A program made the translations under genes and the position numbers. A stretch of DNA of 64,000 bases from Bacteroidetes bacterium GWF2_43_63 (lineage in GTDB: Bacteria; Bacteroidota; Bacteroidia; Bacteroidales; DTU049), in contig MEOQ01000042.1 in NCBI GenBank assembly GCA_001769275.1, positions 62,001-126,000 of the forward strand, given 5' to 3'. Positions 20,744 to 52,870 of this stretch are shown here, one piece after another (within the stretch, counting starts at the first letter, position 1; each line of letters opens with the position of its first letter). Under the pieces are notes generated by a model. The model was not told the DNA's origin, ran no database searches, and saw only the letters and a list, made by a program, of their open reading frames with translations.

Positions 20744-20798
20744 GATTCCCGACGGTTACATGTCCTCTTTTCTATCGGACGGTGGAATGTCGGGAATC
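20744..20798. repeat. REP-like palindrome GATTCCCGAC...GTCGGGAATC
   Basis: Perfect 10-bp outer arms enclose an inner stem GTCC...GGAC. Its reverse complement shares ATTCCACCGTCC and GGACATG-AACCGT with the element at 30262. The outer TCCCGAC/GTCGGGA arms match those of the repeats around the transposase at 52057. Confidence 0.7.
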
Positions 20799-30120: not shown

Positions 30121-30261
30121 GGTTAATTATGTTAAAGAAGCAAATATATAATAATTCTGACTCATTGTCAAACAGGACCAGATTTTTTTTAAAAACATCT
30201 CATAAATCTGTGGTTCTGTAATGAAGGAATCTGTCTGAAATTGCGATCGGGAGCAAAAACA

Positions 30262-30415
30262 ACATTCCACCGTCCGAAAGCGACGAAGGAGCTGAAGGAC
30301 ATGGAACCGTTGTTTTTGCAGATGTTACGACGGTTCCATGTTCTGGCCTGTTTAGAAAACCCACGAAGAGTTTCGAACTCTTCGTGGGTTAATTGTAGCC
30401 GGAACGGTGGAATGT
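30262..30415. repeat. BIME-like pair of REP-like elements
   Basis: The outer arms ACATTCCACCGT (30262-30273) and ACGGTGGAATGT (30404-30415) and the inner arms ACATGGAACCGT (30299-30310) and ACGGTTCCATGT (30330-30341) are perfect 12-bp complements. Together they make two inverted copies of one hairpin unit. The second copy has a 33-bp palindrome in its loop. The unit is related to the one at 20744-20798. Confidence 0.75.
30358..30390. repeat. 33-bp perfect palindrome, copy 1
   Basis: The 15-bp arms AACCCACGAAGAGTT and AACTCTTCGTGGGTT flank TCG. Its homologue at 32975-33007 has the same length and three arm changes, all compensated. Confidence 0.8.
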
Positions 30416-30481
30416 CGTAACAACTCGTTATTTTGAGACAGTTTATGGCTTACGGTTCAATGTGCAATTTCAAGCAGTATC

Positions 30482-32974: not shown

Positions 32975-33007
32975 AGCCCTCGAAGGGTTTCAAACCCTTC
33001 GAGGGCT
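32975..33007. repeat. 33-bp perfect palindrome, copy 2
   Basis: The 16-nt arms AGCCCTCGAAGGGTTT and AAACCCTTCGAGGGCT flank one C. It is followed by a half copy (33010-33030) with one mismatch. It lies between the stop of the AAA gene and the start of hutH and may act as a terminator for the AAA gene: on the minus strand a T-rich stretch follows. Confidence 0.8.
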
Positions 33008-51930: not shown

Positions 51931-52018
51931 TCCCGACATTTTAGCCCCGCCAAATGCGGGGTAAACTCCAGCAAGAAAGGGCTGATAAACAGACCTGCTG
52001 ACCTGGAATCGTCGGGAA
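51931..52018 (+). repeat. left REP-like repeat of the transposase
   Basis: It begins TCCCGACATTTTAGC and ends GGAATCGTCGGGAA. Its last 33 bases (51987-52019) are identical to 52839-52871. A 25-nt insert with CCCCGCCAAATGCGGGG and a GGAGTTTACC core (reverse) is absent from the right copy. Nested stems: TCCCGAC/GTCGGGA outside, CAGCA/TGCTG inside. Confidence 0.8.
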
Positions 52019-52056: not shown

Positions 52057-52707
52057 ATGAAAGAGCCATTTGTGGCAGGCAGATATTATCATGTTTTCAA
52101 CAGAGGAAATGACGGGATTGACTTGTTTAAATCAGAGGATGACTACAATCATTTTCTTGAGTTGTATTTAATATATGCAAATCCTTTTCTTGAAACACTT
52201 TCTTGGTGTTTGATGAAGAATCACTATCATTTTTGTGTACGTATTAAGAGATTTGAGGAAATTGGTTGCTTCGATAAACGAAGCCGATGGGCAAATGATT
52301 TAAGTGATAAGTGGAGACTTTTTCAAAGAAATGATATACCTGAAGAATATCAGATAAGCCCAAATCCTCTGCGAATGCTTAATTTCATGTTTGATGCCTA
52401 CTCGAAATATTTCAATTTTAAATACAAAAGAACTGGAGTGCTTTTCGAGCGAGGAATCGAACGAAGACTTGTTGAAAACAATGATTATTTAATTGAACTG
52501 ATTCTTTATATTCACAACAACCCGGTTAAACATCGGATAACTCCCACCCCTGATTTGTACTACTGGTCATCGTATAATGAAATATTAAAAGGGAGCTCTG
52601 TTTTCTGCAATTCGAGACAAATCATTAAATTATTTGATTCTGAAGAGAACTTCATTTATGCTCACAAGGCGAAATTTTCGGATGATTCAGCATGGAGTGA
52701 TTATTAG
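52057..52707 (+). CDS. REP-associated tyrosine transposase (Y1, HUH)
   Basis: A 216-residue transposase_17/Y1 family protein. The HUH metal site is seen as MKNHYHFCV, preceded by YHVFNRGNDG (RAYT N-terminal motif) and LSWCLM. The catalytic Tyr lies in ILYIHNNPVKH, the YIHxNP motif of the family. These enzymes nick single-stranded DNA at hairpins. Both sides carry the same repeat (51931-52018 and 52804-52870), as expected for a RAYT acting on REP elements. The gene is full length with no frameshift, so it may be active. Confidence 0.9.
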   Translation: MKEPFVAGRYYHVFNRGNDGIDLFKSEDDYNHFLELYLIYANPFLETLSWCLMKNHYHFCVRIKRFEEIGCFDKRSRWANDLSDKWRLFQRNDIPEEYQISPNPLRMLNFMFDAYSKYFNFKYKRTGVLFERGIERRLVENNDYLIELILYIHNNPVKHRITPTPDLYYWSSYNEILKGSSVFCNSRQIIKLFDSEENFIYAHKAKFSDDSAWSDY

Positions 52708-52732: not shown

Positions 52733-52800
52733 GCACCCAACGATTCCGTGTCCATTCCTTTTCTCTATGCAGGTCGGTTGGACGCCAAAATGTTGGGTGC
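52733..52800. repeat. 9-bp inverted repeat between transposase and right repeat
   Basis: GCACCCAAC (52733-52741) and GTTGGGTGC (52792-52800) are perfect complements, 50 nt apart. They begin 26 nt after the transposase stop and end 3 nt before the right repeat. Confidence 0.6.
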
Positions 52801-52803
52801 ACT

Positions 52804-52870
52804 TTCCGACATTTTAGCGTCAGCATGAAAGGGTTGACAAACAGACCTGCTGACCTGGAATCGTCGGGAA
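52804..52870 (+). repeat. right REP-like repeat of the transposase
   Basis: TTCCGACATTTTAGC, then a short loop, then the same end as the left copy. The inner arms GTCAGCA and TGCTGAC pair perfectly. Same orientation as the left copy. Confidence 0.8.

Follow-up and report, generated by a model that had tools for sequence, protein, structure and literature searches.

The locus raises the question of how a perfect palindrome came to lie within the loop of another palindrome. It belongs to a window of 64,000 nucleotides (the whole stretch of DNA analysed) from Bacteroidetes bacterium GWF2_43_63, in which the initial annotation had marked positions 30262–30415 as two inverted REP-like units, one with a 33-bp palindrome of another family inserted into its loop. 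These positions form the core only. The repeated element extends from 30227 to 30445, ends in terminal inverted repeats and sits between two open reading frames. Its parts are as follows.

30227–30240, forward strand: left terminal inverted repeat, GAATCTGTCTGAAA (consensus GAGNCTGTCTMAAA)
30253–30319, forward strand: REPIN hairpin 1 (H1), GCAAAAACAAC a TTCCA cc GTCC, loop, GGAC a TGGAA cc GTTGTTTTTGC, based on the fold and pairing statistics
30262–30273, forward strand: arm A, C-type, ACATTCCACCGT
30299–30310, forward strand: arm B, C-type, ACATGGAACCGT
30324–30421, forward strand: REPIN hairpin 2 (H2), the H1 unit reversed with the palindrome at its tip, based on the fold
30330–30341, forward strand: arm B', complement of B
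30358–30390, no strand: 33-bp perfect palindrome of class P1, 15-bp arms and 3-nt centre, kin of the palindromes flanking the RAYT at G000:C40
30404–30415, forward strand: arm A', complement of A
30432–30445, reverse strand: right terminal inverted repeat, TTTGAGACAGTTTA on the forward strand

The two 12-bp arm pairs, A with A' and B with B', are perfect complements as originally described, and the palindrome does occupy the loop of the second hairpin, its 15-bp arms being 100% complementary around the 3 central nucleotides. The 33-mer, allowing 3 mismatches, occurred 0 times in 100 shuffles of the window and is thus not due to chance. Folded as single-stranded DNA, positions 30253–30421 give −49.7 kcal/mol, compared with a mean of −19.86 (sd 2.93) for 200 shuffles (z −10.2). 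The lowest-energy fold consists of two adjacent local hairpins, H1 and H2, with the palindrome on the tip of H2. A hand-written nested fold limited to the A:A', B:B' and palindrome pairs is weaker at −31.7. Elsewhere in the window, positions 20752–20790 hold a degenerate remnant of hairpin 2, ACGGTTACATGT then ACGGTGGAATGT.

The two inverted REP units are repeated throughout the genome. A search with a 256-bp query scored 40 of 99 candidates and found 81 matches in them, and further fetching brought the intact copies to about 64 (67 parsed copies minus 3 parsed on the wrong strand). Each is built from a terminal repeat, spacer, A, loop 1, B, middle, B', loop 2, A', spacer and terminal repeat. 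Matches to the right arm at up to 2 mismatches number 71, against 0 in the reversed control. Among the 59 genomes searched (the source genome and 58 relatives) the element is present in two, the source genome and the congener G002, and a distant blastn search against plasmid records gave no match. Positions 2 and 9 of the arms vary in concert, with 37 of the 64 copies C-type throughout, 20 T-type throughout and 3 chimeric. A further 4 are C-type except at position 9 of arm A, which brings to 41 of 64 the copies that are C-type at position 2 of every arm. Copy L139 carries an extra 43 nt or so between B and B', with an inverted repeat of its own, and L131 and L134 have about 23 extra nt in loop 1.

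Changes on both sides of a stem that keep the pairing are found in 74 cells of the inner stem of H2 (maximum 32 in 300 shuffles), 52 cells of the outer stem of H1 (maximum 43 in 300) and 7 cells of the outer stem of H2 (maximum 4 in 300); as the copies are related rather than independent, these counts lend support and are not a probability. Covariation in excess of shuffles is likewise seen in the A:A' and B:B' pairs, through the C and T types (42 against 25 and 40 against 21, respectively), and therefore does not by itself distinguish the two-hairpin fold. No variation is seen among the 64 copies in the central TTCCA:TGGAA helices, and pairing at the foot of H2 is no better than in shuffles. 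The 64 copies are not characterised by a GTAG foot at the base of the hairpin; two have the motif in the left spacer, four in the middle and one in the right spacer.

The arms connect the element with genes for RAYTs (REP-associated tyrosine transposases), which are single-strand transposases of the HuH/Y1 type. Using the C9 protein as query, matches were found in 20 of the 59 genomes, the source genome included, where there are five RAYT loci (C9, C17, C40, C45 and one in the window). The last of these is the following gene.

52057–52707, forward strand: RAYT-like gene, 216 aa, motifs KNHYHF and YIHNNP, grouping with the C9, C243 and C144 RAYTs

Its product is 61% identical to the C9 RAYT, and the gene has a set of arm variants of its own on its flanks, ACCTGGAATCGT and ACACGGAATCGT (52001–52012, 52740–52751 and 52853–52864). 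Both this locus and C9, which is flanked by tandem repeats, have arms one mismatch from those of the element, and C17, C45 and C40 have none. Exact C-type or T-type arms were not found at any RAYT locus of the source genome, so that the local element copies look orphaned. In G002 the RAYT C243 has arms A and B on one side and B' and A' on the other, with C at position 2 in all four and C or T at position 9, and the RAYT C144 is enclosed by T-type arms, the left A arm being divergent. The initial description of two inverted REP-like units, as in a BIME, is borne out by these RAYT-enclosing arms.

Four proteins of the source genome match Pfam Y1_Tnp, that of C9 being the weakest, with 19.6 bits against PF01797 (cut-off 23) and 47.1 bits against NCBIfam NF047646 (cut-off 80). 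Five aligned RAYT proteins share an invariant HuH motif (N55-H56-x-H58) and an invariant Y151, the putative catalytic tyrosine to judge from its YI..NP motif. The HuH motif reads NHYH or NHFH in all five, and YIHNNP in the window and C9 proteins is replaced by YIN.NP in the other three. A PDB search for sequence relatives of the Y1 proteins found none at E ≤ 0.01. The Y1 genes L150, which has 52-bp repeats of its own, and L151, together with the partial match L152, were rejected as partners because they are without the arms of the element at up to 1 mismatch. The paralogue at G000:C17 (L184, 1200–2450) is flanked by a tandem repeat of its own, CCGATCTCTCTGCGTCGATG..CGCAGAGAGGTCG, which would fit a pattern of one REP kind per RAYT.

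Beside C144 in G002 is a further copy that keeps 156 bp on the left (98.1%) and 55 bp on the right (98.2%), with the 590 bp between them missing. It retains both hairpins and thereby has exactly the two-hairpin form of the element. Judged by its sequence this deleted copy looks like a newborn REPIN, although G002 is an assembly of 550 contigs and a tandem deletion copy could be an assembly fault.

The palindrome leads to a different RAYT lineage. The RAYT C40 of the source genome has palindromes of the 33-bp family on both sides, from which the window palindrome differs at 4 and 7 of 30 arm positions. A tree of 24 RAYTs places C40 with C495 (100/97), away from the group formed by the window, C9, C243 and C144 proteins (95/95), within which the window protein pairs with C9 (100/99) and C243 with C144 (93/73). 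The claim that the palindrome belongs to another family is upheld by this kinship, since its relatives flank a RAYT of a different lineage. A changed form of the palindrome, CCCTCACAGGGTT, has two copies in each of the congeners G001 and G002, of which one lies next to a RAYT in either genome; the corresponding search pattern finds 31 palindromes in the source genome and none in G003. From a wider scan of named genomes, which may have excluded records of the source genome itself, the 80 best RAYT loci were retained, most of them in records titled as Bacteroidota. Flanks were long enough at 73 of these, and at 51 of the 73 the two sides of the gene matched each other in inverted orientation, compared with 10% of 300 random pairs. 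The top 14 matches listed were palindromes of roughly 33 bp, several of them built like that of the window. As C-type and T-type arms enclose one RAYT lineage and kin of the palindrome flank another, REPs of two RAYT lineages are nested here, and on its sequence the element is best described as a REPIN of one lineage with the REP of another in its tip.

Loop 2 is of several kinds. Twelve of the 64 copies have a P1 palindrome, 8 a P2 palindrome (ATCCC type), one (L034) a palindrome fitting neither class, 11 a CCGCC-type tip and 32 a plain loop. The P1 loops, with flanks close to CTGTTTAGAA and AATTGTGG, include the window copy and one T-type copy (L012), and P2 loops occur with both C-type and T-type arms. 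A CCGCC-type tip is also seen in loop 1 of L119. Between P1 and P2, 4 of 30 arm positions differ; the two were probably acquired separately, their flanks being unrelated. The palindrome pattern is found at 49 places in the genome, or 48 after merging two with identical surroundings. Such REPIN loops, some in damaged copies, contain 25 of these, and 23 are free, among them one in the window.

32975–33007, no strand: free palindrome of the 33-bp family with no REPIN around it (G000:C42:94975-95007)

When the filled loops were compared with 33 palindrome-free loops (the 32 plain loops and the CCGCC-tipped L117), the P2 loops L017, L037 and L039, the last two identical, were found to have empty-loop relatives, each beating all 60 shuffled sets. 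No such relatives were found for the other 5 P2 loops or for any of the 12 P1 loops. None of the five distinct copies of the element inspected in G002 has such a palindrome in loop 2. The 11 other copies that share nearly the same loop and junctions indicate that at the window locus the palindrome came with the element, and not by a separate insertion. The nesting is older than this locus, and the composite P1 loop is present in at least 12 sites with nearly the same junctions. An orthologous locus without the 33-bp piece was not found in three congeners, where the neighbouring gene gave only 33–36% matches.

The proposal of a hairpin-targeting insertion fared less evenly. Both observations that the initial annotation had named as counting against it were made, namely that 11 other copies have nearly the same loop and junctions and that 23 of the 48 palindromes lie outside these loops. 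In its favour are the empty-loop relatives of P2, the self-complementary flanks of the elements themselves and the nesting at L029. For the 51 elements with both terminal repeats the flanks reach a self-complementarity score of at least 9 in 10 cases, compared with 2.7% of mismatched pairs (p 2e-4), and in 4 cases, compared with 0.9%, when the 8 nt next to the repeat are skipped (p 8e-4). At L029 the nesting is reciprocal, with the element inside a palindrome of the 33-bp type; L006 lies within a host palindrome TTCGGCCG..CGGCCGAA, and host palindromes with GTAGTC-type arms surround L019 and, in similar form, L014, L121 and L123. The flanks of L130 are related to those of L121, and therefore not all of the nested cases are independent. 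The free palindromes have a mean flank self-complementarity of 5.57 over 20 nt (control 4.52, p 4e-4; p 0.03 at 30 nt and 0.009 at 40 nt), and 2 of the 23 score at least 8 at 20 nt, against 2.5% of control pairs. Their flanks are thus only slightly self-complementary, and the idea that free palindromes sit in hairpin loops as a rule did not hold up. Targeting of hairpin loops is thus a plausible but unproven explanation, which accounts for the pattern economically and has few independent events behind it.

This genome has short mobile palindromes nested within each other. GTAGTC-type arms also enclose a second perfect palindrome at L064 (1636), L080 (1241) and G000:C45:68860-68937. These nested hairpins measure 77–78 bp each time and so may be one element family, not separate insertions.

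The pattern might arise with no targeting at all, if the 33-bp palindrome were a mobile REP landing at random in intergenic DNA and the spread of the element had multiplied one or two such arrivals in loops. This is a serious contender, to which we give somewhat less than even odds. It would account for the near-identical P1 junctions in 12 of the 64 copies, for the palindromes outside loops and for the modest self-complementarity of their flanks, and the few arm positions that separate P1 from P2 may mean that both go back to one acquisition. It fits poorly, however, with P1 and P2 loop flanks that appear unrelated by eye, with the empty-loop relatives of P2, with elements lying in other palindromes more often than control pairs do, and with the reciprocal nesting. 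Alternatively, template switching or gene conversion at palindromes could swap tips between copies without transposition of the palindrome. The occurrence of the same loop classes with C-type and T-type arms, the P2 loop of L016, which by eye reads inverted, the CCGCC-type tips in either loop and the covarying inner stems would all follow; yet we think such exchange less likely than not, and it leaves unexplained both the first entry into the loop of a palindrome of a kind that flanks another RAYT and the 23 free copies.

A different mover is suggested by the ends of the element. Both terminal repeats are recognisable in 51 of the 64 copies at up to 4 mismatches of 14, and in 37 at up to 2, and terminal-repeat pairs exist as hairpins without the core (L193, 45 bp; L196, 41 bp; L201, 64 bp). 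The left spacer of L193 is nearly that of L009, so L193 may be an excision product or a pre-insertion form. A MITE of the DDE type, with merely structural interior hairpins and no RAYT involved, would have such ends. It is nevertheless improbable, given that the core arms enclose RAYT genes in G002 with no terminal repeat beside them at up to 2 mismatches (L187 begins at a contig end), that 13 of the 64 copies are without one or both repeats, and that no clean or consistent target-site duplication was seen by eye in the copies. Single terminal-repeat matches at up to 2 mismatches show no excess genome-wide (245, against 307 in the reversed control). The strong fold, the covariation and the position between two open reading frames could also belong to a transcribed RNA element or terminator retained for the host. 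We regard this as very improbable, as there are 0 Rfam matches at the gathering score within the window, the unit has the same form on both strands and such arms sit at transposase genes.

Our preferred reading, with a probability of roughly 0.72, is that the feature is a non-autonomous REPIN, formed of RAYT-type bulged inverted hairpins in a terminal-repeat unit, and that the palindrome of a second lineage entered its tip ancestrally. Several points weigh against this reading: C-type or T-type arms were found at none of the RAYTs of the source genome, the C9 protein scores below the RAYT model cut-offs, the GTAG foot is absent as a feature of the copies, and for the P1 class of the window no palindrome-free loop resembles an empty site. 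In the ancestor the second-lineage REP would have entered the tip of hairpin 2, where hairpin tips may be exposed as single strand during replication. The route may have been single-strand insertion mediated by a RAYT, or swapping of hairpin tips between copies. The composite would then have been copied to at least 12 sites with its junctions nearly unchanged, the palindrome never having inserted alone at the window locus. As the terminal repeats point to a DDE transposase, a RAYT may not move the present unit.

It is possible, although we would bet against it, that RAYTs of the Bacteroidota prefer to insert their REPs into the hairpin tips of other REPs, so that rival families ride together and tips become exchangeable cassettes, and that REPINs arise by internal deletion of RAYT genes between inverted REPs. 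The genus bears on how REPINs arise and spread, as it offers arm types matched to RAYT paralogues, a unit that has lost most of its RAYT, and tips both filled and empty, which make origin and spread testable by simple cleavage and insertion assays.

The comparison with known systems draws on parts of the cited papers. REPINs consist of two inverted REPs with a less conserved spacer and compensatory changes, with a RAYT beside each type; a stable hairpin and a clover are proposed as folds in a figure legend, and descent from an IS200-like element is one possibility given for their origin (PMC3116915). The element shares the paired inverted REPs, the compensatory changes and a RAYT beside each type, but it has longer bulged hairpins, no GTAG foot, terminal repeats around the unit and a palindrome of another lineage in its tip. 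TnpA-Y1 subclass 2.6, mostly from Bacteroidetes, has genes bordered by atypical secondary structures that recur at other places in the genome, the motifs NH[LIV]H and YIH[QN]NP and, like subclass 3, repeats without a GTAG foot (PMC6006769). The RAYTs described here resemble it in their HuH and YI..NP motifs and their structured flanks with genomic copies, whereas the middle HuH residue is Y or F instead of L, I or V; the excerpted text of that paper names no nested REPs or internally deleted units.

Insertion sequences are known to insert at the symmetry axis of REP palindromes (PMC1525189), a likeness in the place of insertion, although a whole insertion sequence is concerned there and a 33-bp palindrome here. 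Perfect-palindrome REPs of other TnpAREP are also known (PMC8266576). That REP dimers can lie inside palindromes is already established, since the A. variabilis GTAG-15, T. roseum GTAG-23 and H. neapolitanus CGTC-1 units do so (PMC3733652). In the part of that account consulted no host palindrome is tied to a second RAYT, whereas the inner palindrome here is of a RAYT-flanking kind with free copies. Among the titles and abstract openings listed in searches of the open literature, none describes the REP of one RAYT inside the REPIN of another. The pairing of two RAYT lineages in a single element, together with what may be a snapshot of the birth of a REPIN, looks new.
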